Shown piece by piece: positions 3,800 through 50,515 of a DNA stretch of 52,924 nucleotides. Position numbers and translations under genes: made by a program. The stretch comes from a virus. The stretch covers positions 1 to 52,924 of IMG/VR virus record IMGVR_UViG_3300045973_001495; one strand, written 5' to 3'. The notes beneath the pieces were generated by a model. The model searched no databases and was not told where the DNA came from. It saw nothing but the letters and a program-made list of their open reading frames with translations. The stretch's first letter is position 1; the number at the start of each line of letters is the position of its first letter.

Positions 3800-5299
3800 T
3801 TAGACGTAGAAAATCGCGCCGACTACATCATTTGCCGCCGTTACGGTGGCATCCAAGTCAGCAGCAGCGCCCGTGCAAGCTATCCCCAAGCCAAGTGACA
3901 TCGCCAAGCCACCGGGCATCTGATGCGTTGTGGTGCTATTGGGCGGCAGTCCAATCATAAAAGTTGGCGATGCGCCCGAGGCTGGTGCTGTGGCTAGGTT
4001 GTAGAACCGGAAATACTTAAATGCTGCGGTCGTATTGGTCAGCGACCAGCCGAGCAAGCGCCGAGCGCCGGTAAGGATCAGCGCATTGTTTACCGTTGCA
4101 GCCGAAGCGAATTTAAACGTAGTCGCCGCGCCGGTTGCATTGGCGCGGTACTGAATGCCAACGTCACCAATCGCATTCGCACCAGCCACTAGCGCAGGCA
4201 GTGCGGCAATCGACACTGGTTGTGTTGCCACGATTGGCGCAAGCGTTGCCTGCGATGCCTGCACGTTAATGGTTGTCGTGCCAGCAGTAGTTGCCGTGGT
4301 CAGACGCAGTCGGAAATATCGAGCAAGTACGTTTGTATTGCGCAGCACCGCCGCGTTGAATGTCGTACTTGATGCGCCGGATTCACTCAGCAGCGTTGCT
4401 GTAACTGGCAAAGTAAACGCCGCATCATTTGCCCATTGTGCTGTCACTACGCCAGTTGTCCCCATGCTAAGGCACTGGATCGACAAGCTCTTAAACTTGG
4501 CACAATCAATTACGATTAGGTCAGTATTGATGGCGATGATGCCGGCCAGTGAATACGGGAATAAGATCAAATCAGGGTTTTGGCTGCTTGGTACTGGCTC
4601 GGTCGCAATCGCGCTTGGCTTCAGAACATATGCCGCCGTGCCGCTTGTGTGAGCGGTCGCCCGCACGCGGAAATAGGTGTAGTTGGCAACATTCAACTCC
4701 CAACCATAGCTAGGCGTTGCCGCTAGAACGCCGGTCGTTGTTTCAATGACGTTGCTATCAGTACGGACGACCTGCGCTGTTTTCCAGTTGCCGTCAGTGC
4801 CGTTTGTGCTGTCGTTTGACACCTCAAAAATGGCGTTGTGACCTACCAGCGTAGTCGCCGCCATCGTGATCGAAAGTGCGCCGAGGCGATTAGTGTTTAC
4901 GAAAACAGTCTGCGCCGCTGCCGTGATGCTGCCCGATGTGGCGACAATATCGCCTGCCTGAATCGCCACCTTGAGCCGTCCAGCCTGATCCATCTTGAGG
5001 CCAGTGTATTGGCCGTCTGCTGTGGTTTCTGCGGTATCGGAGTCCCGTCGCTGGGCAAGCATGACCTGACCGTAGTCGGTGACGTTGGCCGTGCTGTTCT
5101 TCTGTTTGACGGTTTGCTGTTGGATCGCATCGCCAACCGGCAAAGGGAAAGCCGCCGAGGCATCGCGGCTGTCGCCGTCGTCACCGAATGCGACTTTGAC
5201 GCGCTGAACTTTTACGCCAGTCGAGCCGCTGCCGTTGAGCGTGGCAACTTCATCACTAGCGATAGTGTCGTTGCCGGTTTGAGTGGAATTGTCAGCCAT
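3800..5299 (-). CDS. Phage structural protein, probably tail or fibre component
   Basis: This 499-residue protein is rich in Ala, Thr, Ser, Asn and Val with alternating hydrophobic patterning, which suggests beta-rich folds. The start (residues 1-55) is acidic and includes a G-x-G-x-T-G-V-K-V-Q-R-V-K segment common in phage surface proteins. No enzymatic motif is visible. It is coupled to the 138-residue gene upstream by TGATG and sits in a run of likely surface proteins after the large polyvalent gene. A receptor-interacting or appendage protein is the best guess; the exact role is unknown. Confidence 0.6.
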   Translation of the reverse strand: MADNSTQTGNDTIASDEVATLNGSGSTGVKVQRVKVAFGDDGDSRDASAAFPLPVGDAIQQQTVKQKNSTANVTDYGQVMLAQRRDSDTAETTADGQYTGLKMDQAGRLKVAIQAGDIVATSGSITAAAQTVFVNTNRLGALSITMAATTLVGHNAIFEVSNDSTNGTDGNWKTAQVVRTDSNVIETTTGVLAATPSYGWELNVANYTYFRVRATAHTSGTAAYVLKPSAIATEPVPSSQNPDLILFPYSLAGIIAINTDLIVIDCAKFKSLSIQCLSMGTTGVVTAQWANDAAFTLPVTATLLSESGASSTTFNAAVLRNTNVLARYFRLRLTTATTAGTTTINVQASQATLAPIVATQPVSIAALPALVAGANAIGDVGIQYRANATGAATTFKFASAATVNNALILTGARRLLGWSLTNTTAAFKYFRFYNLATAPASGASPTFMIGLPPNSTTTHQMPGGLAMSLGLGIACTGAAADLDATVTAANDVVGAIFYV

Positions 5300-12899: not shown

Positions 12900-12957
12900 C
12901 GACAAAACACCCACTTGGGGCGACAAGACATTTTAGCGCATGTTAGCGATTAGATAA
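12900..12957 (-). promoter_or_regulatory. Candidate late promoter with initial-transcript hairpin (unit 3)
   Basis: Minus strand: TAAAAT at 12935-12930 as -10, with only a weak -35 (TTATCT, 16-base spacing). It is followed after 4 bases by TGTCGCCCC-AAGT-GGGTGTTTTGTCG-type sequence forming a short hairpin at the probable RNA 5' end. The same arrangement is found at 25447-25504 and 33153-33208. The resemblance among the three supports it more than the -35 does. Confidence 0.4.
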
Positions 12958-14149
12958 GGTTTTTCTGCTGCATGATTCGCACCAAATCCGCTCTTTGTTT
13001 TATTAGTTCCATAGTTTTTTCGGGGTTCTGTTGATTCGCTTGAATAGATGCGTCCACATTCTTTAAAGCCTGTTTATAGGAATCAATAGTGCGCTGGCGC
13101 TCTTCTGGACTCTGCGGAACTTGCGGATCGACCGAGGCGGGCTTAGGTGCTACGGGGGCGGGCTTCGCCGCCACCGGCTGCGCTGCTGCCAGTAATCCAG
13201 CCTGCACAGGCTTAGGCGCTGTTGCTTGCTGTTGCTTTGGCGCTGGCATCTTGCCAGTAGCGACAAAATCGCTGGCTTCCAAGTCTGACAAGCCCGGATG
13301 GTCGGCCTTGGCTTTGGATATTTTTGCGGCAATATCATCACGAGCTGAAGCGGGTGGCTTCCCTGTGCCTGCCTGCGTCAAAGGTGAATATGTGCCGTCG
13401 GCATTAATCCGCACGGTTTCTTTTACAGTTACCGGCTTACTAAGATCGTCTTTAACTTGCTTATCAATGGTTTGAATCCTAAAGCCAGCATCGCGGGCAG
13501 TTGGAGTTAAGAAGGCGGTGAAGTCCTTGCCCTTCGTGGCCGCACTATCCACAAGGTTTTTCAACTCCTTTTTCTCTTCCAAAGTACGCTCACTGGTGGG
13601 AATCGAAGAGATTTCAGCGATCCGCGACTTCATCTTGATCGCTTCAGTGTTGTCGAACTTGTCTTGGGCCTCTTTCTTGCGACGATCCCCCAACTCAGCC
13701 CAGCCAAGTGCTTGACTTGCTTTTGTGCGTTGAATATCAAACTTACTCTTGATTGCTTCTTCAGCCTCTAGCTTAGAAAGCCCGTTCTTCATTTCAAGAG
13801 CAATGGCGTCTTGGTACTCTGGCGTTTTCTTGAACTCAAGTTCTGCGCGCTTCCCATCAAGAGTGCGTTTGATTTCTTCCTGCGCCTTCCCGGCACGCAT
13901 CGCAACTTGCGTTGGATCGTTCCAAACCTTTTGACTAGCACCAGCCTCAGCCATCGCGGTTGTTTCTGCCTTCTTGCCCGCATTGTCTAGGTCAAACTGA
14001 AGCGCCCATTGCTTTTCGCGCTTCACCTGTTCAAACAGTGCTTCGCGTTCCAGTGCTTTGCGGTCTGCATCCTGCTGCTCACGATTCTGGCGAACGTACT
14101 CACCTGTTGCGCCGGTTGCTGCTGCTAGCAATCCATCTAGGAAACTCAT
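12950..14149 (-). CDS. Probable internal (ejection) virion protein, coiled coil
   Basis: This 399-residue protein begins with a short hydrophobic Ala/Gly segment (FLDGLLAAATGATG) and continues as a highly charged helical region to about residue 220, rich in KxxE and QxxD patterns. An extended Ala/Pro/Lys linker follows at about 290-350, then a C-terminal helix. This composition is typical of podovirus internal core proteins. It is coupled by ATGA to the 159-residue gene and is the last gene before the giant polyvalent gene. No enzymatic motif is visible. Confidence 0.6.
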   Translation of the reverse strand: MSFLDGLLAAATGATGEYVRQNREQQDADRKALEREALFEQVKREKQWALQFDLDNAGKKAETTAMAEAGASQKVWNDPTQVAMRAGKAQEEIKRTLDGKRAELEFKKTPEYQDAIALEMKNGLSKLEAEEAIKSKFDIQRTKASQALGWAELGDRRKKEAQDKFDNTEAIKMKSRIAEISSIPTSERTLEEKKELKNLVDSAATKGKDFTAFLTPTARDAGFRIQTIDKQVKDDLSKPVTVKETVRINADGTYSPLTQAGTGKPPASARDDIAAKISKAKADHPGLSDLEASDFVATGKMPAPKQQQATAPKPVQAGLLAAAQPVAAKPAPVAPKPASVDPQVPQSPEERQRTIDSYKQALKNVDASIQANQQNPEKTMELIKQRADLVRIMQQKNLI

Positions 14150-14634: not shown

Positions 14635-15135
14635 TTACTTCTTGAAGTAATCAGAATTAACAAAGCGGCTGGTATCCAATCCACCAAGCCCACGGCGTTT
14701 CGCATATTCCTCATAACTGAGTTTTTGCATTTCCTTCGCTTGCTGCAATGCGGCCTCTTGCGCCTTAGTTGTCGCCTTATCTTTCTGGTAGCCATTAAAT
14801 GCACTGAGCAACCCTTGTCCAATAATCCCCTTGCTGCTTGTGCTTAGGCCATTGATTAGGGAAGAGCCGCCTTTCCAGATTTGGTCAAAGATGCTGCCGG
14901 TTTCATCAGAAATGGGCGTGCGGGTAACGTCTTCGTTTGTGTACTGGTAATCAAGGTTAGGACTGCCATCTGGAACTATTTTCTCAAGCCCGTAACCGTC
15001 CTCTTCGCTTGGTGCAATGCTGCCATCTGGCAACACGATTTCGCCATCTTCGTTTATCTTCCACCCGGCAGGGAGCCAACTGGAATCATTGTCTTCCACT
15101 GTGTTGTCGCCATCTGATTCGTTCATATCAACCAC
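14635..15135 (-). CDS. Hypothetical internal virion protein
   Basis: This 166-residue protein has an acidic N-terminal third with a WxxPxGWxxxxDGEIVLPDGS pattern, a Ser/Gly middle, and a basic, Gln-rich helix at about 110-150. Its start overlaps the end of the 557-residue gene by 8 bases. It lies within a block of five genes that probably encode the ejected core. No known domain seen. Confidence 0.55.
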   Translation of the reverse strand: MVDMNESDGDNTVEDNDSSWLPAGWKINEDGEIVLPDGSIAPSEEDGYGLEKIVPDGSPNLDYQYTNEDVTRTPISDETGSIFDQIWKGGSSLINGLSTSSKGIIGQGLLSAFNGYQKDKATTKAQEAALQQAKEMQKLSYEEYAKRRGLGGLDTSRFVNSDYFKK

Positions 15136-16801
15136 CTTTCTTTGTAATCTTCTTTGGCGGCACCAACTGCTTGCCGAGTGTCATTTGTTTAACTGCTGTG
15201 CTGGCAACCGTCCCTGCGATGTCGCCAAGTGTGCCGTTGCCAGTGAGGCTGCCGATACTGTCGTTAGCTGCCGTACCCGCTACGCTGGCAAGTAATCCGT
15301 TTGCGTTTATCCCGCCCGTTTTGATGTACTGCCCAGCCATCTGCCCGCCAGCCGAAATCAGCGCTTTCGTGTAGTCGTTTGGCGTATCTAATCCGCCTTG
15401 GCGTTGCAGGCGAGATAAGTCAGCGCCGGTCGTGCTGGTATTGAAGTCGAGCCCGCGCGACAGGTTCGTGCCCCCTTGGATAAGGCCAGCCGTGGCTGCG
15501 CTAGCTAGCAGGGATTTAGGGTCTAGCTTGCCGGTGCTAATTAGCCCGCTTGTTGCAGTGCGTGCTGCGGCTGCGGCTGCGGCCGAAGCCGACGAGCCTA
15601 AGCCCTTGGTCATGCCGCCAACTGCGCCGCCAACTTGCGCACCGGCATACGATGCGGCAATGCCCTTCAGAACATCGCCCAAGCTGCCGCCGTTGGCTAA
15701 CGTGGTCATGGCAGAGATCGCCCCGCCGATGACTTGACCGCCCGGTATCATCGAGACAACTGCACCAATGATCTGGCCGTTCTTCTGTAGCCACCCGTTT
15801 TGCCGACCGTTGTTCTTGCTGGCGGCTGCCTTGATAAAGTCCTTGTTCGCCATCAAGCCAAAGCGTTCGTCGTAGTGGAACAACATGTTCCGCACGTTCT
15901 GCTGTTGCGCTGGCGTGGTTGCACCGGCTTGCTTATAGACTTCCGGCAACATCGTGTTGATGTCGTCATTTAGTGGCCCGATATTCCCTATCTGTACCAA
16001 GCCTTTTAACTTCGGGTCGCTAATTGCCTGATAGGCTTTATTGTCCTGTTGCTGCGATCTGCGGTTACTTCTACCGGCATTGTGGTCTATGCCATCGTTA
16101 TAAGTTCCGGTAAAACCGTATTCGCCCACGCTGCCATCGGCTGTTTCCATCGCTGTAAAAGCGATCTTGGCTGTCTCGTCGGTGACACCCTTCAGCCCCG
16201 CCTGCTCTAGCAGCTTTTCTTTTGTGCCAAGCATCGGGTCGTTAGCAATAGAAACGCCCTCGTCACCGTAAGCAGTTCCGCCACCATCCATGAAGTAGCC
16301 TGAGTTTTTCTCTAAGTCTTCATCTTTGGTACTAGGGTTAAGTTTCTTCGCTTGTTCTAAAGTTAGATACTGGTAAACCTTTTCATCGTTCTGTGGGTCT
16401 GGGCCTTCATGCGGGCCTTGATACAAGTGATAGTTGGCATACTCCAAACCGGCATTCTTCAACTCGTCTGGCGTTGTCTCCACACGGTAGCGCTTCATCG
16501 ACTTAACGAAGTCACCCACTGTTGTCGTTTTGGAGTCGTCATCCACTAACGCCGCATACTTGTGATCGCCTTTTACCTTCTCCTGCAAAGCAGGATCGAG
16601 CCACATATAAGCAGCGTTCTGGTTTACCCCGTACCCATCGCCGTACCCCGTGAACGAGTTACCAAAGTGCTGAAACGGGGTTTGAGGCTGCGCTGATATA
16701 TTTGATGCGGTAGCTGCGGGCTGAGTGGTTGCCGTTTGCTGTGGCTGCGCCAAGGCAACCACCGGCTGTTTTGGCGGTGTGAGTTGCTTGCCTAGCTGCA
16801 T
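15128..16801 (-). CDS. Probable internal virion protein with glycine-zipper region
   Basis: This 557-residue protein has an Asp/Tyr/Gly-rich N-terminal two-thirds, including GDGYGVNQNAAYMWLDPALQ near residue 50. From about residue 350 the region is Gly/Ala-rich with small-x-x-x-small spacing (VVSMIPGGQVIGGAISAM, GGAVGGMTKGLGSSASAAA), able to form membrane-inserting helices as in ejection proteins. The two ends echo each other: LGKQLTPPK near residue 3 and LGKQLVPPK near the C-terminus. It sits 2 bases after the 846-residue gene. Function inferred from composition and position. Confidence 0.55.
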   Translation of the reverse strand: MQLGKQLTPPKQPVVALAQPQQTATTQPAATASNISAQPQTPFQHFGNSFTGYGDGYGVNQNAAYMWLDPALQEKVKGDHKYAALVDDDSKTTTVGDFVKSMKRYRVETTPDELKNAGLEYANYHLYQGPHEGPDPQNDEKVYQYLTLEQAKKLNPSTKDEDLEKNSGYFMDGGGTAYGDEGVSIANDPMLGTKEKLLEQAGLKGVTDETAKIAFTAMETADGSVGEYGFTGTYNDGIDHNAGRSNRRSQQQDNKAYQAISDPKLKGLVQIGNIGPLNDDINTMLPEVYKQAGATTPAQQQNVRNMLFHYDERFGLMANKDFIKAAASKNNGRQNGWLQKNGQIIGAVVSMIPGGQVIGGAISAMTTLANGGSLGDVLKGIAASYAGAQVGGAVGGMTKGLGSSASAAAAAAARTATSGLISTGKLDPKSLLASAATAGLIQGGTNLSRGLDFNTSTTGADLSRLQRQGGLDTPNDYTKALISAGGQMAGQYIKTGGINANGLLASVAGTAANDSIGSLTGNGTLGDIAGTVASTAVKQMTLGKQLVPPKKITKKGG

Positions 16802-16803
16802 GA

Positions 16804-19344
16804 TTACGCCTCGTGTTCTGAGCCGTCAGCCAAGCGGATTGCCCAGCCAGATTTAGAAGCTGGGTTTTTAACCCACGTTCCAGTTACTTCTGCACCAGTG
16901 TCATCGGTTGCCGCTACGTTTGATCCTTCGGTTACTTTCGAGTAATCCGGAGTCCCGTTTTTCTCGCCAGCAGCGATACCATTGGTGCCTGTTGTTGTGG
17001 TTGTTGTCGTAGTTGCTGGCCCGGTGACGGTTGGTGCTTTGGTGCGCGGCACGCCGTAGAAATCAGAAGCCGAATCAAGCACAAGCTGACGCGATGCAGT
17101 GTCGGGATAGTCACCATTCAAGATGGTCAACATCGTATTTTTGTAATCGACAAACTTTGACTGACTCAAATTCTGTAAAGACAGATCAAAGTTCTTATCA
17201 AACTGCATACCGCTTTGTGCAAGTTGCGCTTTGAATTGGTCGGTAGCTTGTGCGCGGCTTGCTGCGTTTTCTGAGCCTTGAAACTCTTGTTGCGCCTTCT
17301 GCAAAGCCTGTTGTGCAGAAATGTTTTTATCGGCAACCATTATCTGCTGCGCACGATCCAGCGCCGATTGCGTATCCGCATGGTTGTAACCAAGTTGCGT
17401 CATCTTCTCCGTGAAGCCATTTTGGATAGATGAAAGCTCTTTGTTACGTTCAAACGAAAGCTGATTTTCGTCGCGCTGGAATGAGCGGCTTGCGGCGCTC
17501 TCGTCTTTCTGGAAATTGCGATTGGCTGCGTTTTCGCCTGACTGCCATGATTGCTGGCTGTTTTGAAGCGAAGACTGAAGTGACCGATTCGCTGCATTCT
17601 CGCGGCCTGTAAAGGCGTTCTGCCCTTCTTGCAGACCGGCACGGTTGTAAGTGTCAACGTCAGACTGTGCCAAGTCCTTCATTGCACCAAGGCCAGCAGC
17701 TTGAATGCTTGCTTGGCCTAGCGTGGAGTTAAGCAAGCCACGGCTATTCACCGCCTGCGCCATTTCACCTTCAGCCTGCGCTTCAATGGGGTTCGTTGCG
17801 CCGTTGGTTAGCTGGCCTAGCCGGTCGCTGGTGAGTGCGTACTTGGTATCGCCCATTTGACTGCCCAATAAGCCACCGCCAGTCGATACGCTTGGCGTTG
17901 CAGTAGTTGGCGATGGACTGGTTGGTGTAGTGCCGCCGCCCGAAGTGACTGGCGCGCCCGCTGCGGGGGGCTGTGTCGGCGCTGACACGTTGCCGCCTGT
18001 TGGTGGCAGCGTGTGATTGCCCCATTCGTTATGGTCAAGTTTAATTACATCGTTATCTTTTCCGCCAATCACATTGCCTGCGTTTGCGCCGCTACCCGGC
18101 AATATTTTCGCCGGGCCACCAGTCTTCAATCCATTCCCGCCAAGACCGGCAGGCTGACCAGACAAGACAATATTTGGATGTTTTTGTAGCCACGCATCAA
18201 GCGTCTTGTTGTCGCCACCCGCCTGCTTCTGCGATGCGGCTAGTTGCTGATAGCTAATGCCGTTGTCCATCGCCCACTGACCTACACCCTCTTCGCCGCT
18301 GGAATTGACGGCGCGCATGAATAGATCGCCACCCTTGCCAGCATCTAGATAGGCTTGAATCAAGTCAGGCATAGAAACCTTGTTATCACCCGCCCACTTG
18401 GTTACATCCTCAAATGAACCGCCTTTGCCGAAGATTTCTGTGATCGCGCTTGAACGTGTTTTTGCGTCAAGCGGTGCGTTGGTAGCAGGCTTTCCGCCAG
18501 CATCTTTATTGATTTGCGTGAAGTCATCTGGCTTTGGTTGAGTAACGTCAGGCTTTGGCTGCGTACCCGTTGGTGAAGCACCAAACAAACCGTTTTCGCT
18601 AATGAACTTGTCAAAGTCAGCTGGCGTACCGTTTGGATTCGCCTGCTGATATGCAGCAAAGGCGTTTTCTTTCGATACGCCAGCATCTTGAATCGACTTG
18701 GCAGCGCCCAACAGACCGGCATTGCCGCCCCCATAAAAGTTCACACCATCTTTCAGGAAAGCACCAGCCTGATTCGCGCCAACAAAAACCTGCGCAGCTT
18801 GATCGGGTGTTAGCCCATTTTGAATGCCGTAATCGTAGGCTTGCTGGTTCGTCCAGCCTAGACCGCCCTGATCTTTGCCCTTGATCGCATTCTGCAATGC
18901 AGCTTGCCAATCGTTTTGCGAGTAGGAAGTTGTGCCAAAGTTATTAGCTGGTGCGGTTGTATTGGCTGGCTTAGTTGTTGGCAGTGCATAAACGCCATTG
19001 TCGCTAGTCCACTTGTCGAAGTCAGCCTGCGTGCCTTGCGGGTTCGCTTGCTGGTACGCGGCAAAGGCGTTTTCGCGTGAGATACCGCCACTCTGCATGC
19101 CTTTGGCAGCAGCCAGTAGGCCAGTATTACCGCCGCCGTTCTTGGCGATGCCCTCTTGCAAGAACGAGCCGCCTAGCCCGGCGTCATTGAATACGCTCCC
19201 GGCCTCGTCGGCGGTCAGACCATTCTGGATGCCGTAATCCCAAGCCTGTTGATTCGTCCAGCCCGAGCCGCCTTGATCCTTGCCCTTGACTGCGTTCTGA
19301 AGATTGGACTTCCAGACGTCTTTCGTAAAATTGCCGTAGGCCAT
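16804..19344 (-). CDS. Large internal virion protein with tandem ~115-residue repeats
   Basis: This 846-residue protein contains two tandem copies of a unit of about 115 residues (about 6-117 and 140-252). The unit has W(K/Q)xxLQNA(V/I)KGKDQGG, then WTNQQA(W/Y)DYGIQNGLT, and ends ENAFAAYQQANPxGT. A more divergent helical unit follows to about 390. A Pro/Thr/Gly linker leads to a C-terminal helical region with repeated ENAANRxxQ units (about 560-640). No lytic transglycosylase motif is seen. Size and location next to the lysis cassette and before other core proteins suggest an internal or ejected protein. The repeated domain may bind peptidoglycan, but that is speculation. Confidence 0.6.
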   Translation of the reverse strand: MAYGNFTKDVWKSNLQNAVKGKDQGGSGWTNQQAWDYGIQNGLTADEAGSVFNDAGLGGSFLQEGIAKNGGGNTGLLAAAKGMQSGGISRENAFAAYQQANPQGTQADFDKWTSDNGVYALPTTKPANTTAPANNFGTTSYSQNDWQAALQNAIKGKDQGGLGWTNQQAYDYGIQNGLTPDQAAQVFVGANQAGAFLKDGVNFYGGGNAGLLGAAKSIQDAGVSKENAFAAYQQANPNGTPADFDKFISENGLFGASPTGTQPKPDVTQPKPDDFTQINKDAGGKPATNAPLDAKTRSSAITEIFGKGGSFEDVTKWAGDNKVSMPDLIQAYLDAGKGGDLFMRAVNSSGEEGVGQWAMDNGISYQQLAASQKQAGGDNKTLDAWLQKHPNIVLSGQPAGLGGNGLKTGGPAKILPGSGANAGNVIGGKDNDVIKLDHNEWGNHTLPPTGGNVSAPTQPPAAGAPVTSGGGTTPTSPSPTTATPSVSTGGGLLGSQMGDTKYALTSDRLGQLTNGATNPIEAQAEGEMAQAVNSRGLLNSTLGQASIQAAGLGAMKDLAQSDVDTYNRAGLQEGQNAFTGRENAANRSLQSSLQNSQQSWQSGENAANRNFQKDESAASRSFQRDENQLSFERNKELSSIQNGFTEKMTQLGYNHADTQSALDRAQQIMVADKNISAQQALQKAQQEFQGSENAASRAQATDQFKAQLAQSGMQFDKNFDLSLQNLSQSKFVDYKNTMLTILNGDYPDTASRQLVLDSASDFYGVPRTKAPTVTGPATTTTTTTTGTNGIAAGEKNGTPDYSKVTEGSNVAATDDTGAEVTGTWVKNPASKSGWAIRLADGSEHEA

Positions 19345-37916: not shown

Positions 37917-38143
37917 GCGGCCAGCTCAGGCCAGATGCGTTGCCAATCGTTAGGGCGCAGCGCCTTTCTCGACACGCCGGATAGGCGCTCTAGCTCGGGC
38001 GCGTACTCAGGAGGCACAGCGCCACGCCGCGCCCATTGGTAGACCGTTTGATGACGTAGCCCCCAAATCACCGACAGCTTTAAGCCGCCACCGGCTGATT
38101 TAATGGCTAATTTGATAGGGTTTTGGGGTGTAGTGGCTTTCAT
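37913..38143 (-). CDS. Cro-like regulator of the YdaS family
   Basis: This 76-residue DNA-binding protein has the YdaS/Cro pattern AIKSAGGGLKLSVIWGLRHQTVYQWARRGAVPPEY with a terminal RPxDWxRIWPE. I chose the ATG at 38143 because the longer frame runs through the repressor promoter and into the repressor gene. It is transcribed away from the first XRE repressor and would repress that repressor's promoter or its own. Confidence 0.75.
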   Translation of the reverse strand: MKATTPQNPIKLAIKSAGGGLKLSVIWGLRHQTVYQWARRGAVPPEYAPELERLSGVSRKALRPNDWQRIWPELAA

Positions 38144-38206
38144 GCCACCAATTTTGGCACAGCGAGGTAGCATTATGCAACCGACCACACCTATTGAATG
38201 CCACTT
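38134..38206. promoter_or_regulatory. Operator region between the cro-like gene and repressor 1
   Basis: Two overlapping inverted repeats, TGGC-N6-GCCA (38134-38147) and TGCCA-N7-TGGCA (38143-38159), cover the cro start. A TGCCACTT follows at 38199-38206. A minus-strand CATAAT (38177-38172) may be the -10 for the cro operon. The repressor start is only 31 bases away. Confidence 0.55.
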
Positions 38207-39017
38207 TGATGTTTCGCAGAATGTGCGAATGTCCTCAAAACTATGGCAACGCATACGAGCAGCCCGCAGATTTAGCGGCTTAAAACAATCCGATATCGCC
38301 ACAAAGATTGGCGTATCCCGTAGCGCCGTATCTCAATGGGAAATAGACGGCGACAAGACACCCACGCTAGACAACCTGCGCCACTTCAGCGAGGCCACCG
38401 GCTGCCCTATGGAATGGCTTGTGTCCAATGACTCAGACATTAGCCACCATTGGGCGGTAGAGATAACGAAGCCAGAAAGCGCCGACATAGTGCCGATACG
38501 CGAAGGCGTAACCATTGGCGGGAACTTGGCTGGAATCACCCCGGCCAACGAGGAAATCGAATATCAGCACTGGCAGGATTACGCAGAGATATTGAGCTAC
38601 GCAGCAACTAAGGCGTTTGGTGCGGATAGTTACTCAGTCAACGGGCGCATACACACCAAGCTAGGCATGGTTCGCACTGACCTAGAGCTGCACTACCCAT
38701 GCCCCGCCATTGTGATGATTAACGTGCCAGACATACGGATAGCAGCAGCACGGGAGCGTAGTGGGCGGGAGTTAGAGCGCAGTGCCATAGAGGCGCGATT
38801 CATTGACACCCTGACGCTGGCGGCCTTCAGGGCCAAGCACAGCGCCCGCCATTATGTAGTGGTAGCCATCACTTCCCCGCTGTCACTAGAGCGCTATACC
38901 GATGAACTGGAAGCCCTAAGAGAAACCGGCATCATTGACCACCTGACCGTTTTAGAAAACGGCATCCCGATAGAGGATCAGGTGCTAGAAACACTGCGAT
39001 TACTCAAAAGCAGATAA
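38175..39017 (+). CDS. XRE-family repressor 1, without S24 domain
   Basis: This 280-residue protein has an N-terminal HTH (about 19-70 from the chosen start, LWQRIRAARRFSGLKQSDIATKIGVSRSAVSQWE). The rest is a large region with strands and charged helices that I do not recognise. I see no LexA/CI-type Ser-Lys peptidase motifs, so RecA-driven self-cleavage is not expected. The ATG at 38175 has a GAGG site 7 bases upstream; an internal start at 38229 is possible. It should repress the divergent cro/replication operon. Confidence 0.75.
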   Translation: MQPTTPIECHFDVSQNVRMSSKLWQRIRAARRFSGLKQSDIATKIGVSRSAVSQWEIDGDKTPTLDNLRHFSEATGCPMEWLVSNDSDISHHWAVEITKPESADIVPIREGVTIGGNLAGITPANEEIEYQHWQDYAEILSYAATKAFGADSYSVNGRIHTKLGMVRTDLELHYPCPAIVMINVPDIRIAAARERSGRELERSAIEARFIDTLTLAAFRAKHSARHYVVVAITSPLSLERYTDELEALRETGIIDHLTVLENGIPIEDQVLETLRLLKSR

Positions 39018-39020
39018 GAC

Positions 39021-39047
39021 AAAGCCCGCATCTAGCGGGCTTTTTTC
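39021..39047. terminator. Bidirectional terminator between the two repressors
   Basis: A 9-bp perfect stem (AAAGCCCGC / GCGGGCTTT) with T-runs outward on both strands, between the convergent repressor genes. Confidence 0.85.
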
Positions 39048-39594
39048 ATACGCAGCGTTTTATCGCCCGCGCTGTAACTATGTCTATCAGGTCAATGCTA
39101 GTGTCAACTCCAGAAGCTAGCACGGCGTCGCCTATACGTTCCCAAGCAATATGATTGTGGATTTTAGACAGCAACTCATACCCCGCCCAAGTCAGTGCCA
39201 AACCGCCACTACTAACAGATTGCCGAGAGCCAGCCAGCCACTCAAAAGAAAAGCCGGTCAACTCTGCAAAAATACGCAAATGGTCTAGGCGTGGCTCGCT
39301 GCGCTGTGTGGGGTCTTTGCTTTCCCATTTCGTGACGCTAACCCGCGTCAGCCCGCACGCATCGGCAATCTGCTGTTGTGACACATGATTAACCGAGCGC
39401 GCATGGCGCAACCGCTGCCAAAGCTCGCCCGGAGCGGACTTCTCTTCCGTGGCGACTCGCTTTAGATACCCAGCGCTAACCAATAGATCAACGCTGTGGC
39501 TAGCCCCCTTCTCACTCACATGAGCAAGCTCGCCCATAGTGCCGTTGTTCACGGCAATCAAAACATCGCGCATCACATCCCAATTTCTATTCAT
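39046..39594 (-). CDS. XRE-family repressor 2 with DUF2513-like N-terminus
   Basis: This 182-residue protein begins MNRNWDVMRDVLIAVNNG and has SHSVDLLVSAGYLKRV, a winged-helix-like start resembling DUF2513. A canonical XRE HTH follows (about 58-115, ELWQRLRHARSVNHVSQQQIADACGLTRVSVTKWES). No S24 domain is visible. I use the ATG at 39594, which has GAGGAA 5 bases upstream; an upstream start would add 11 residues. The gene faces its own divergent early promoter, which it probably represses. Confidence 0.75.
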   Translation of the reverse strand: MNRNWDVMRDVLIAVNNGTMGELAHVSEKGASHSVDLLVSAGYLKRVATEEKSAPGELWQRLRHARSVNHVSQQQIADACGLTRVSVTKWESKDPTQRSEPRLDHLRIFAELTGFSFEWLAGSRQSVSSGGLALTWAGYELLSKIHNHIAWERIGDAVLASGVDTSIDLIDIVTARAIKRCV

Positions 39595-39629
39595 ACGTTC
39601 CTCACTTTTTTTGACTTGAAATAGCACCG

Positions 39630-41919: not shown

Positions 41920-42414
41920 ATGGCATCATTGCAAAACGTATTCATCGACCAAACCGCACAGCCTTCAAAGGGCGGCTTTGAACCCCTGCCTGCTGGCTCT
42001 TACATCGCCATGATTACCGATTCGGAAATCAAAGCGACCAAAGCAGGAACCGGCACCATCCTCAGCCTGACGCACACGGTTGTCGATGGCCCGCACGCCA
42101 ACAAGAAAATCTTTGCCCGCTTGAACGTAGGCAATCCCAACGCCACCGCGCAGAAGATTGGACAAGAGCAATTCGCTGCTGTGCGTGCTGCCACTGGCGT
42201 ATTGCAGCCACGCGATACCGGCGAGCTTCATGGCAAACCCATGAAGATCAAGGTCAAGATTCGCAAGGATGAAACCTACGGCGATTCAAATGAGATTACG
42301 TCTTGGGAGCCAGCAACCGGCGTCAGCGCACCGACAGCCGCACCGTCAGCACCTTGGGGCGGTCAGCAAGCCCCCGCGCCAGCAGCAGGCGCAACCCCGC
42401 CTTGGCAGAAGTAA
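41920..42414 (+). CDS. DUF669 single-strand-binding-like protein
   Basis: This 164-residue protein has the DUF669 layout: FEPLPAGSYIAMITDSEIKATKAGTG at about 20-45, then a helix-strand region with GNPNATAQKIGQEQFAAVRAATG, and a Pro/Ala linker ending PPWQK. Such proteins pair with Sak4-type recombinases and are proposed to bind single-stranded DNA. It follows a 119-base gap after Sak4. Confidence 0.8.
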   Translation: MASLQNVFIDQTAQPSKGGFEPLPAGSYIAMITDSEIKATKAGTGTILSLTHTVVDGPHANKKIFARLNVGNPNATAQKIGQEQFAAVRAATGVLQPRDTGELHGKPMKIKVKIRKDETYGDSNEITSWEPATGVSAPTAAPSAPWGGQQAPAPAAGATPPWQK

Positions 42415-42417
42415 GTT

Positions 42418-42446
42418 TTGACAAACGCGGCTGCTTAAACTACTGT
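42418..42446 (+). promoter_or_regulatory. Promoter for the C4 RNA and antirepressor
   Basis: A TTGACA box, 17-base spacer and TACTGT -10 (42441-42446), placing +1 near 42452. It lies at the end of the DUF669 gene and directly before the C4-like structure. Confidence 0.75.
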
Positions 42447-42450
42447 GAAC

Positions 42451-42525
42451 GTGCTGGCCTCATGCCAGCACGGGATTGGCGTCCCGGAGAGAAGGCAGAC
42501 ACCTGCCGCGCAAAGCGGCTTTTTC
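42451..42525 (+). ncRNA. C4-type antisense RNA (P1/P4-like immunity RNA)
   Basis: The order is a GTGCTGGC/GCCAGCAC stem (42451-42471), a GGGATTGGCGTCCC stem-loop (42472-42485), a GGCAG/CTGCC stem and a CCGC/GCGG stem with a T-run. The GGGATTGGCGTCCC piece is a signature of C4 antisense RNA as I know it. Its loop GGATTGGCG (42473-42481) is exactly complementary to CGCCAATCC at 42608-42616 in the leader of the antirepressor, and CATGCC (42461-42466) can pair with GGCATG near 42538-42543. The RNA should block antirepressor translation. Identified by sequence recall, not by a model search. Confidence 0.85.
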
Positions 42526-42554
42526 ACGTCTGTCAAAGGCATGGCTTCTTCCTA

Positions 42555-42630
42555 TGGGCGGGGCTGTGTTGGGGAGCCGCAAGGCTCGCCGGTTCCTTTT
42601 CCCGGTACGCCAATCCAACACAGTTCCGCC
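42555..42630 (+). promoter_or_regulatory. Antirepressor leader hairpin carrying the C4 target
   Basis: GGGCGG and CTGTGTTGG (about 42556-42572) can pair with CCAACACAG and CCGCCC (about 42615-42632). The loop and flank expose the C4-complementary CGCCAATCC (42608-42616). This long-range hairpin lies 55-130 bases before the antirepressor start. Confidence 0.65.
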
Positions 42631-42684
42631 CACCTCATTTGGCGCTGAGGCGGCGGTTTATTCAGCCGAAAAGGAGTATTAAAA

Positions 42685-43656
42685 ATGTCTAGTACCAATC
42701 TTGCAGTATTTAATTTCGAATCTTTCCCTGTTCGTACCGTTAAAAAAGATGATGACGCATGGTTTGTTGCATCTGACGCTTGCGCGGCTCTTGGGCTTGG
42801 GAATGCGTCACTGGCAGTAAACGGGCGTGCAGACAGAGATAGTGATGGATTAGATGAAGAAGATAGGGGGCTTGCCACTGTCAATACCCCCTCCGGCGAA
42901 CAACAAATGTTAGTCGTCAATGAATCCGGCCTTTACAACCTAATTTTCAAATCGCGAAAACCCGAAGCCAAGAAGTTCAAGAAGTGGGTAACGTCTGAAG
43001 TCCTCCCCGCCATCCGAAAGACCGGCAAGTACCAAGCTAAAGCGGAGAGTCGTTACAAGTTTCCAACACCGTGGACAACCGAAATCGCTGGCGTCACAGA
43101 AGTTGGAGTGTGCTGGCAGAAAAACCAACGCTGGGTACGAATTGGCGGGTATGGCGAATCGCGGGGGAATTCAAGACTAGAACGAGTTTGTAAAGGTCTG
43201 AATCAAACCATCGTCAGTTACTTCGATACGTTCATCAAGCAAGGCATGACAACCGAAGTGCCCTACGAACGCAATACAACTTGCGTAGTGCTAAACCTGC
43301 CCGGCCTACTCTTCGCGCTGAACCGCTGCCGCGCCTCAGCCGATCAGCGTATGGCTATCGACTGGTGCATTTCAACAATGGCAAGCGATGCTGCATTTAT
43401 CGCCACGCTTGAAGCCGACATGGGCGCTCCCGAGCAAGTTGATATAGATAAGTTAGTTGCCGACAAGATGGCTGAAATGCACAAGGATTCGGTGCTGGTC
43501 TCTAAAGAGAAGTTGTCCGAGCTAGTCAACATGCACAGCCAAACTGCAAATTATCTGAACAGCAAGACACGCAAGGCTAAGAAGCTCATGGGCATTGAGA
43601 TATTGCCGCCTTGGCATGGCTACCAAGAGAAGCTACGGCTACCGAAAGCCGCCTAA
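42685..43656 (+). CDS. BRO-N antirepressor
   Basis: This 323-residue protein begins with a BRO-N domain (about 4-115: AVFNFESFPVRTVKKDDDAW, ASDACAALGL, ESGLYNLIFKSRKPEAKKFKKWVTSEVLPAIRKTG), followed by a less recognised region and a C-terminal helical part. AAGGAG lies 8 bases before the ATG. C4 RNA upstream and BRO-N domain together identify it as an antirepressor of the P1 Ant type. It should bind or inactivate one or both repressors and so end lysogeny. Confidence 0.85.
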   Translation: MSSTNLAVFNFESFPVRTVKKDDDAWFVASDACAALGLGNASLAVNGRADRDSDGLDEEDRGLATVNTPSGEQQMLVVNESGLYNLIFKSRKPEAKKFKKWVTSEVLPAIRKTGKYQAKAESRYKFPTPWTTEIAGVTEVGVCWQKNQRWVRIGGYGESRGNSRLERVCKGLNQTIVSYFDTFIKQGMTTEVPYERNTTCVVLNLPGLLFALNRCRASADQRMAIDWCISTMASDAAFIATLEADMGAPEQVDIDKLVADKMAEMHKDSVLVSKEKLSELVNMHSQTANYLNSKTRKAKKLMGIEILPPWHGYQEKLRLPKAA

Positions 43657-43665
43657 CAACCAAAC

Positions 43666-43688
43666 ACCCCGCACATGCGGGGTTTTTT
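43666..43688 (+). terminator. Terminator after the antirepressor gene
   Basis: A 7-bp perfect stem (ACCCCGC / GCGGGGT) with a 4-base loop and a T-run on the plus strand. Confidence 0.85.
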
Positions 43689-43701: not shown

Positions 43702-44766
43702 ATGAAAATCCCCACTGGCCTAATCGAAGACCGCGACCAGACGCTAGACGATATTGACGCGGCAATGGAAGAACGCGCAGCGCTGGAACAAGAGCGCCCT
43801 TACTTTGGCATGTCTGGCATGAAAGATTGCGCCCGCGCTATGTGGTACGGGTTCAGGTGGGCGGTTAAGCCCGCATTCAAGGCTGGCACGCTGCGCAAGT
43901 TTGAAGACGGCCACCGAACTGAAGACTTGATGGCTGCACGGTTGCGCATGGTTGAAGGCATCACGCTTTACACGCACGACCCAGCCACCGGCAAGCAGTT
44001 TGGTTTTCAGGATTTTGGCGGGCATTTCAAAGGCCACATGGACGGCGCAATAAAAGGCATTTATGCCGCGCCAAAAAAATGGCATGTGTGGGAATGCAAA
44101 GCGTCAGGAGATGACGTTTACACCAAGTTTCTGAAGGCCAAGAAAGACAAGGGCAGTAAGTCAGCTCTAAAAGACTGGAATCCTACTTACTACGCGCAAG
44201 CCCAGCTTTATATGCACTACTCAAAAATGGATCGCCACTACCTGACGGTAACAAGTGCAGGAGGGCGCGACCACACAAGTTGCCGAACTGAGTACAGCCA
44301 ACAGGATGCGGAGCAATTTATTGCCCGCGCTGAGTCGGTAATTTTTGCCGATGAGCCACCGTTGCGCCCCTATTCGGCAGACTTTTTTAAGTGCAAATGG
44401 TGCGACTTCCGCCAGATTTGCCACAACACCGAAGCGCCTAACGTCAACTGCCGCACCTGTGCGCATAGCACTGTGCAGCGTGCAGGCGGGTGGACGTGTG
44501 ACAAAGCCGAGCCGGTTGAAATCACAGTGGAACAACAGCGAGCCGGGTGCGGATCGCATCGGTACATACCGATCCTCTTGGACAACTTCGCGGAAATGGT
44601 CACAGCCAACGCGGGGGATGTCGCCTACCGCAACAAGCTGACAGAAAACACCTTCACCAATGGCGATCTAAGCAGCGTGGAAATCAAAGCCGCGCAGGAC
44701 AAGAGCGCCCTTGGTGATCCAGACGTACAAGCCCTACGCGCTGCGGGGGCGACAATTACAGGGTAA
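43702..44766 (+). CDS. PD-(D/E)XK exonuclease (RecB/Cas4-like)
   Basis: This 354-residue nuclease contains GHRTEDL (70-76), GHMDGAI with D114, ECK with E131 and K133, and YYAQAQLYM with its Gln near 166-168, the usual PD-(D/E)XK order. The C-terminal half has clustered Cys (CKWCDFRQIC, CRTCAHS, TCDK, GCGSH), as in Cas4/AddB-like iron-sulfur nucleases. It probably resects DNA ends for Sak4. Confidence 0.8.
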   Translation: MKIPTGLIEDRDQTLDDIDAAMEERAALEQERPYFGMSGMKDCARAMWYGFRWAVKPAFKAGTLRKFEDGHRTEDLMAARLRMVEGITLYTHDPATGKQFGFQDFGGHFKGHMDGAIKGIYAAPKKWHVWECKASGDDVYTKFLKAKKDKGSKSALKDWNPTYYAQAQLYMHYSKMDRHYLTVTSAGGRDHTSCRTEYSQQDAEQFIARAESVIFADEPPLRPYSADFFKCKWCDFRQICHNTEAPNVNCRTCAHSTVQRAGGWTCDKAEPVEITVEQQRAGCGSHRYIPILLDNFAEMVTANAGDVAYRNKLTENTFTNGDLSSVEIKAAQDKSALGDPDVQALRAAGATITG

Positions 44767-49155: not shown

Positions 49156-49685
49156 TTACCAAAGTTGAAGCGCTAGCTGACCAGTGGCTAAACAGCGGCA
49201 AAGGTGAATGGCACGCGGCTGGCGTGGAAATGTACAACGCCCTCCGCGAAATCGCTGCGACGATGCGGCGTGGTGAAGTAGAAATGCCCGAACCGCATAA
49301 GCCACCAATGTACGCGACTAGCGAAAACACTCCGGCTGTTCGTGATGGTTACGCAGTTGGCGGATACGAAATCGAGGAGGGTCTGTATTCGTATGACCAG
49401 ATGGTTGCTTATGCTGACGCCGCCGTACTGGCTGCGATAGGGGATGTTTCCCTCATTGATGAGGGTAGTAAGGGAAAACCCGCACCCAAGGCCGAGCCGG
49501 TATCAAAGCCACCACTAACGGGGCGCTGGCACCACGGCTGCGGAACAATCGTATCAGGAACCTTGCGAATCGCGAGAGAGGACTTTGAGTACAACGCCAG
49601 TGACGAATGTAGGGATGAAATATTCGACTGGATTTGCGCAACGCTTAATGCCGCCATCGCAGCGGCGAAGGAACAAGGGCGATGA
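49152..49685 (+). CDS. Hypothetical accessory protein
   Basis: This 177-residue protein starts MITKVEALADQW at the same junction and ends AAAKEQGR. The first half is charged helical, the second half contains WHHGCGTIVSGTLRIARED. The ending AAKEQG is shared with a later gene (50518), in a similar junction. Function unknown. Confidence 0.5.
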   Translation: MITKVEALADQWLNSGKGEWHAAGVEMYNALREIAATMRRGEVEMPEPHKPPMYATSENTPAVRDGYAVGGYEIEEGLYSYDQMVAYADAAVLAAIGDVSLIDEGSKGKPAPKAEPVSKPPLTGRWHHGCGTIVSGTLRIAREDFEYNASDECRDEIFDWICATLNAAIAAAKEQGR

Positions 49686-50515
49686 GGAACCCATTTTTAA
49701 TCAACTCTCCCACCTGCATTTCGTTCTCTGGCGGCAGAACAAGCGCCTTTATGTTGAAAAAAACAATTGAAGCAAACGACGGATTGCCGCCAGAAGCTAT
49801 AGTCTGTTTTGCAAATACAGGGAAAGAAACAGAAGAAACACTGGAGTTCGTGCGTGATTGTGAACGTAATTGGAATGTGCCAATTCGCTGGCTTGAATTT
49901 CGGGATGATGAACGAAAATTCGCATCGGTTACTTTTGAAACAGCAAGCAGAAATGGTGAACCTTTTGATGCGCTGATAATGAAACGGGGAATGCTGCCAA
50001 ATCCAGTAAGTAGATTTTGCACCGTTGAATTGAAAGTTAGGACAATCCACCGTTATCTAAAATCAATAGGTTGGAGCGAGTGGAATTCATTTCTCGGCAT
50101 CCGCGCCGATGAGCCGTATCGAGTTGCCAAGATAAAAAATAATGACTACGGAAAGCACGAAGAGAAATCTGCCCCACTTGCCGAGGCTGGCGTAACTGCC
50201 GCTGACGTTGGGGATTTTTGGAAAGCACAATTGTTTGATTTGAATCATCCAAACATCAACGGTGTGACTATGGAAGGCAATTGCGATTTGTGCTTTCTAA
50301 AAGGTGGCAATCAAGTATTTAGTTTGATTCAACAAAAACCCGAGCGCGCAATTTGGTGGTCACAAGCAGAAAGCATGATTCAGACCACTAAATTAAGTGG
50401 TCGAAGATTCAGAATTGACAGGCCGTCTTATCAAGAAATGCTGGATTTCGCATCAGCCCAAAAGGATTGGATTGATGATGCAACAGGAAAAATTCCATGC
50501 TATTGCGGAGATTAA
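49682..50515 (+). CDS. PAPS reductase-like PP-loop protein
   Basis: This 277-residue protein has the ATP-binding PP-loop FSGGRTSA (SGGRTS at 16-21) of phosphoadenosine phosphosulfate reductase-like enzymes. It also has many Cys, including RFCTVELK, GNCDLCFL and a terminal PCYCGD. PP-loop enzymes use ATP to activate sulfur or nucleotide chemistry; the exact reaction of phage versions is not settled. The gene is richer in A/T than its neighbours, a sign of transfer. DNA modification or anti-defence is possible but not shown. Confidence 0.8.
   Translation: MRNPFLINSPTCISFSGGRTSAFMLKKTIEANDGLPPEAIVCFANTGKETEETLEFVRDCERNWNVPIRWLEFRDDERKFASVTFETASRNGEPFDALIMKRGMLPNPVSRFCTVELKVRTIHRYLKSIGWSEWNSFLGIRADEPYRVAKIKNNDYGKHEEKSAPLAEAGVTAADVGDFWKAQLFDLNHPNINGVTMEGNCDLCFLKGGNQVFSLIQQKPERAIWWSQAESMIQTTKLSGRRFRIDRPSYQEMLDFASAQKDWIDDATGKIPCYCGD

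Follow-up and report, generated by a model that had tools for sequence, protein, structure and literature searches.

The predicted temperate phage analyzed here carries a module in which, by homology, a genuine C4 antisense RNA of the P1/P7 type lies directly ahead of a BRO-N antirepressor gene, a type of switch that was already known. The best explanation of the locus as a whole, to which we give a probability of about 0.6, is that C4 would block translation of the BRO-N antirepressor and that a short RNA made upstream, a1b1, would titrate C4. The window, i.e., the whole stretch of DNA that was analyzed, is 52,924 nt long and comprises positions 1 to 52,924 of the IMG/VR virus record IMGVR_UViG_3300045973_001495.

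RESULTS

A C4 antisense RNA is predicted ahead of the BRO-N gene

In an Rfam scan of the whole window, the sole gathering-level match was to the C4 antisense RNA family (RF01695), which aligned over its full length (1-87) with 42550-42637 on the plus strand (63 bits, E 6e-10; cut-off, 45 bits). The initial annotation had proposed this covariance check and a C4 match was indeed obtained, but it fell on the stretch that had been designated the leader hairpin and not on 42451-42525, where the C4 RNA had been placed. The P1-type system and the pairing that had been noticed were correct: the signature GGGATTGGCGTCCC lies within 42472-42485, in a hairpin at 42471-42486, and its exact complement, ACGCCAATCC, lies at 42607-42616. 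The antisense RNA and its target, however, had been exchanged, and we rejected that assignment of roles on the basis of the C4 model match and of the P1 annotation.

C4 of phage P1 is an established antisense RNA, which was mapped there. C4 antisense RNAs are characteristically trimmed by RNase P to about 77 nt, and the product of the P1 c4-icd-ant operon inactivates the phage repressor. The P1 record is annotated in the order a1, b1, C4, a2, b2, and ORF (icd), and the order of these elements in the window is identical, running from a promoter-like site through a1, b1, a terminator, C4, a2, and b2 to the ATG at 42685 (Table 1). P1 and the window are also spaced almost alike, with 29 and 30 nt, respectively, between a2 and b2 and 18 and 17 nt between b2 and the ATG. 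Both RNA parts of the c4-icd-ant operon (immI) of P1, an operon that P7 has as well, are matched by the same models as those of the window. In P1, icd is the first ORF and ant lies behind it, whereas in the window the antirepressor gene is the first ORF and b2 is its own Shine-Dalgarno sequence, complementary to the b' loop of C4. The Bro-N ORF begins 9 nt past b2, and no icd-like ORF was found between C4 and the antirepressor gene. The antirepressor of the window also differs from that of P1 in being a Bro-N protein encoded by a podovirus-type phage. C4 of P1 keeps ribosomes from binding at b2, and a' provides the specificity (reviewed in PMC5320573 and PMC12197685).

Table 1. Coordinates of the C4-antirepressor unit within the window
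Feature	Coordinates	Strand	Remark
Promoter-like site	42418..42446	+	TTGACA (42418-42423), 17-nt spacer, TACTGT (42441-42446); read from sequence
a1b1/IsrK-like element	42444..42530	+	Model R1; expected short RNA about 42451-42525
5' hairpin	42451-42471		Precedes a1
a1, GGATTGGCGT	42473..42482	+	10-nt complement of C4 a'; inside CGGG...CCCG hairpin 42471-42486
b1, GAGAAGG	42489..42495	+	Pairs with C4 b' loop, one G-U
Outer helix around terminator	42494..42534	+	GGCAGAC (42494-42500) with GTCTGTC (42528-42534)
Intrinsic terminator of short RNA	42505..42524	+	GCCGC-GCAAA-GCGGC-TTTTT
C4 antisense RNA (predicted)	42550..42637	+	Rfam RF01695
Upstream ORF, 42 codons	42554..42682	+	Runs through C4; possible counterpart of Gifsy-1 orf45; ends 2 nt before antirepressor ATG
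b', TTCCTTTTCC	42593..42602	+	Loop of C4 hairpin 42588-42606; complementary to antirepressor Shine-Dalgarno
a', ACGCCAATCC	42607..42616	+	Largely single-stranded in C4 model
a2, TTTGGCGC	42638..42645	+	Weak; pairing with a' limited to TTGGCG (6 nt)
b2, GAAAAGGAG	42668..42676	+	Shine-Dalgarno of BRO-N gene; unbroken run of 8 pairs with b', and one G-U
BRO-N antirepressor gene (predicted)	42685..43656	+	323 aa; Pfam PF02498, E 6.9e-25; PHROG anti-repressor Ant, E 1.5e-43
Intrinsic terminator closing cassette	43666..43688	+	ACCCCGCACATGCGGGGT TTTTT

One model spans the isrK and c4-a1b1 families

Upstream of C4, two Rfam families aligned with the window at a permissive threshold: isrK (RF01394) end to end (1-77) with 42451-42525 (33.8 bits; cut-off, 50) and c4-a1b1 (RF03163), the target of C4, with 42440-42490 (21 bits; cut-off, 46.7). 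Because both scores were under the Rfam cut-offs, we used 32 elements found upstream in other C4 loci, not including the window, to build a model, R1. R1 matched the window at 42444-42530 with 55.1 bits (E 5e-14), the next-best match in the window having 17.9 bits. When R1 was run on 32 other antirepressor loci, the only match was in L053, which is a C4 locus itself; the C4 model matches its genome (G007) at the same position. R1 also matched the annotated a1/b1 leader of phage P1 (48.2 bits) and isrK of the Salmonella prophage Gifsy-1 (47.5 bits), and therefore one model spans Rfam's isrK and c4-a1b1. In Gifsy-1, these two families match one and the same place.

The stretch 42451-42525 is the a1b1/IsrK-like element, in which a predicted binding site for C4 precedes an intrinsic terminator, and its product is likely a short, terminated, IsrK-type RNA. 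A 3'-terminal intrinsic terminator is a trait of isrK. Of the 92 loci, 64 have a terminator-like hairpin in the interval from b1 to C4, versus a mean of 9.7 in shuffles. The helix that encloses the terminator can form only in read-through RNA; its two sides pair better with those of their own locus than with those of others, and none of 5,000 permutations was as good. The a1b1 leader of P1 (L160, 2224-2317) likewise has a terminator-like hairpin at its end and an enclosing helix, so that P1 may produce an IsrK-like short RNA.

These assignments bear on the experiments that the initial annotation had suggested. Deletion of 42451-42525 had been expected to raise the antirepressor. By our reading of the sequence, it removes the C4-binding element and the terminator, not C4, and with a decoy role for the short RNA the antirepressor would fall, not rise. 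A ~75-nt RNA on a Northern blot would not by itself identify C4, since the locus should also yield an isrK-like RNA of similar length.

C4 varies in step with its flanking sites

We gathered 97 C4 loci, nearly all through the C4 model and three phage loci through DNA similarity. Ninety-two of them were distinct in a' and b', and the flanking sites were not chosen for pairing. The a' and b' of every C4 were paired against the upstream and downstream regions of every locus, with 5,000 permutations. The mean energy was lower with the locus's own sites than with foreign ones for a'/a1 (-14.0 versus -9.7 kcal/mol), b'/b1 (-13.6 versus -10.1 kcal/mol), b'/b2 (-14.6 versus -9.7 kcal/mol), and a'/a2 (-10.4 versus -8.9 kcal/mol), the own pairing being better than the median foreign one in 88, 89, 88, and 69 of the 92 loci, respectively. 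No permutation out of 5,000 reached the observed mean for any of the four pairings, in a comparison from which common descent is not fully removed. By these energies, the letters of C4 vary in step with its own upstream and downstream sites across the 92 loci.

The window itself showed a strong a'/a1 pairing (-18.4, rank 4 of 92), followed by b'/b1 (-11.2, rank 15), a moderate b'/b2 (-10.6, rank 25), and a weak a'/a2 (-9.4, rank 45), the last limited to 6 nt; a2 is clear in most relatives. In the close relatives L018 and L021, the six elements have all changed together. In 66 of 78 loci, 2 to 16 nt separate the end of the downstream site b2 from the start codon. Co-fold energies of C4 with a1b1 and with a2b2 (means, -2.5 and -2.2) did not tell the preferred partner apart. 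A 10-nt complement also arose in 75 of 5,000 dinucleotide shuffles, and on its own it is therefore weak evidence. The C4 model match, the independent model R1, and the co-variation over 92 loci together exclude chance.

A small genome (G574) holds six C4 units. In the five that were examined (L131, L140, L145, L149, and L151), a' differs from unit to unit and each matches its own a1 and a2, as if the units were kept mutually insulated.

The unit resembles a cassette inserted among recombination genes

The BRO-N gene that the initial annotation had recognized was confirmed by Pfam and PHROG matches (Table 1), and an antirepressor function of its product is predicted from P1 and Gifsy-1. The promoter that had been proposed was also found as a promoter-like pair. 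A sigma-70 consensus scan did not report it because its -10 box matches at only 3 of 6 positions, and a similar pair stands at a similar place in 54 of 97 relatives. The TTGACA begins 3 nt past the stop codon of a DUF669 gene (41920-42414), and the distal terminator ends the unit ahead of a Cas4-like exonuclease gene at 43702 (PHROG). The unit is located in a recombination operon (AAA_24, DUF669, Cas4, helicase), about 3 to 4 kb from the repressor-like genes at 38103-39017 and 39046-39627, in agreement with the setting first described, inside the recombination region and apart from the repressors. Pseudoalteromonas phage C7 and Synechococcus phage Ssp-JY40 also have AAA_24, DUF669, and Cas4-like genes, in that order, with a helicase further on, and in them the gap between the DUF669 and Cas4-like genes is only 67 and 88 bp, respectively. 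Given its own promoter-like site and terminator and these short gaps, the C4-antirepressor unit looks like an inserted, self-contained cassette.

Integrase (from 51764 onward) and excisionase (51705) genes mark the virus as temperate, as had been proposed, and its putative podovirus type rests on relatives of its portal/head-tail adaptor and terminase. No near-identical phage DNA was found for 28001-52924. A search for an operator shared by the repressor region and the C4 promoter found nothing, the best 14-mer matches equaling those of random stretches. Elsewhere in the window, four long ORFs on the minus strand (3800-5299, 12950-14149, 15128-16801, and 16804-19344) had no PHROG match at E 0.001, and 49682-50515 is a phosphoadenosine phosphosulfate reductase-like gene (PHROG E 4e-48).

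C4 units recur in bacterial genomes

The initial annotation had suggested a switch for one group of phages, which is too narrow. Of 300 genomes from the order of a Zoogloeaceae genome, 42 had a C4 match over the Rfam cut-off, as did 18 of 274 from the class of a Competibacteraceae genome and none of 14 control genomes. The ORFs 3' of C4 vary; some encode antirepressors and others different proteins, and some are very short.

Acinetobacter baumannii Group 1 C4-like sRNAs were described with the C4 model and as processed RNAs (PMC5320573). Like the window, the C4 units of the Acinetobacter genomes studied here have their own a1b1 and b2, but most precede very short ORFs, not antirepressors. We counted 8, 20, and 4 C4 units in the Acinetobacter genomes G004, G006, and G009, respectively; those examined (L065-L067, L071-L073, L076-L078, and L081-L094) lie mostly ahead of ORFs of 19 to 64 aa, and most have their own a1b1 and a Shine-Dalgarno sequence matching the C4 loop. 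From their sequences, what was published as Group 1 sRNAs would appear to be complete C4 switches for small genes and not sRNAs that stand alone.

DISCUSSION

The mechanism that we favor builds on the sequence elements observed in the window, with their homology, order, spacing, and co-variation. Transcription would start near 42452, and part of it would end at the first terminator to yield an IsrK-like a1b1 RNA of ~75 nt. Read-through would yield the C4 precursor and the antirepressor mRNA. The b' loop of C4 would pair with b2, aided by a'/a2, so that translation of the antirepressor would be blocked and the prophage would stay silent. The short a1b1 RNA, which offers a second and better a site as well as a b site, would most likely titrate C4, and the balance between a1b1 RNA and C4 would decide whether the antirepressor gets made. 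Processing of C4 and repression by it are proposed after P1 and Gifsy-1, the repression step being strongly supported by homology; we are less certain of the titration of C4 by the short RNA. Points against this explanation are the 6-nt a2 pairing, the scores of isrK and c4-a1b1 under their cut-offs, and the poor -10 box.

Side-by-side isrK and C4 elements have been reported before. In Burkholderia cenocepacia J2315, ncS23/ncS24 consist of an 81-nt isrK with a terminator, a 22-nt gap, and a 90-nt C4, which form one transcription unit by RNA-seq (PMC4603805); the corresponding gap in the window is 24 nt. The two are also annotated side by side in Xylella fastidiosa De Donno (PMC12189769). In isrK-orf45-anrP of Gifsy-1, as in the window, a short terminated RNA is followed by a C4 match and then by an antirepressor gene: the stretch 3' of isrK is C4 by Rfam, and C4, isrK, and c4-a1b1 all match there. 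The RNA from this downstream stretch, STnc1160, was described as complementary to IsrK and likened to the CI RNA of P4, and the text of that paper mentions neither phage P1 nor C4 RNA (PMC4825925). Co-expression of the C4-like STnc1160 made IsrK-mediated growth arrest more pronounced and did not relieve it (PMC4825925), which speaks against the simplest form of C4 titration.

The published Gifsy-1 mechanism itself provides another explanation for the window, which we regard as unlikely. There, the same promoter also gives rise to the short IsrK RNA, by which translation of the antirepressor is activated in trans; deletion of the isrK promoter abolishes stationary-phase prophage induction (PMC4825925). 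Applied strictly, the read-through mRNA would fold into an inactive form with a1b1 paired to the C4 part, and the short a1b1 RNA would refold it in trans and open an upstream ORF coupled to the antirepressor, as with orf45; an action of C4 as a free antisense RNA would not be required. This mechanism was demonstrated by mutation in Gifsy-1 (PMC4825925). In the window, the predicted minimum-energy fold of the leader pairs a1b1 with the 3' half of C4, like structure A of Gifsy-1, and the 42-codon ORF ends just before the antirepressor ATG. This ORF is probably a chance occurrence, however: it is not kept in the window's relatives, its frame being no more often open past C4 than the other two (43, 40, and 41 of 61 relatives), and we rejected upstream-ORF coupling as a general feature. 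Moreover, direct blocking is suggested by b2, which is the Shine-Dalgarno sequence of the main ORF and varies together with the C4 loop, and P1 sets the precedent for C4 as an antisense RNA.

Phage P4 acts on replication genes through transcription termination. Its CI RNA is flanked by complementary sequences, seqA upstream and seqC downstream (PMC4825925), and C4 of the window likewise is an antisense RNA lying between an upstream and a downstream complementary site. If immunity were of the P4 type, C4 would pair with the flanking sites and cause premature transcription termination before the antirepressor, with no blocking of ribosomes. The terminator between a1b1 and C4, strongly enriched at that place in relatives, suits such a scheme, yet pure termination needs no site centered on the Shine-Dalgarno sequence, as b2 is in 66 of 78 loci, and we consider this quite improbable. 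The roles first assigned, with 42451-42525 as the C4 antisense RNA and 42550-42637 as the target leader hairpin, gain from the symmetry of base pairing and from the likely terminated RNA of ~75 nt at 42451-42525. They are very hard to uphold, since the C4 model matches the other stretch, in the window as in P1, and the Shine-Dalgarno sequence pairs with a loop inside 42550-42637. We give equally little credence to a decayed remnant, in which homologous elements have lost their function: the middling rank of a2 and the -10 box would fit decay, but a'/a1 and b'/b2 rank 4th and 25th of 92, the antirepressor frame shows no interruption, and neither terminator is missing.

Beyond the window, we put forward tentatively, as somewhat short of an even chance, the idea that every C4 system, P1 included, might be a three-part switch made of a short terminated decoy RNA (a1b1, with IsrK as one example), C4, and the target Shine-Dalgarno sequence, with co-evolving specificities. 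IsrK and the P1 a1b1 leader would then be a single element, and an IsrK-like anti-C4 RNA of P1 would have been overlooked.

The C4-antirepressor module on which our preferred reading centers adds a temperate phage of podovirus type to the range of a classical phage immunity switch, apparently as a transferable cassette. The additions to the known system are the co-variation in three places, the unification of isrK and c4-a1b1 under a single model, which matches both the C4 target leader of P1 and the IsrK RNA of Salmonella, and the likely cassette nature of the unit. The comparison also makes the decoy role of the upstream RNA testable. As specificity changes in step at three places over 92 loci, the sharing of C4 immunity between phages, or the escape from it, may become readable from sequence.
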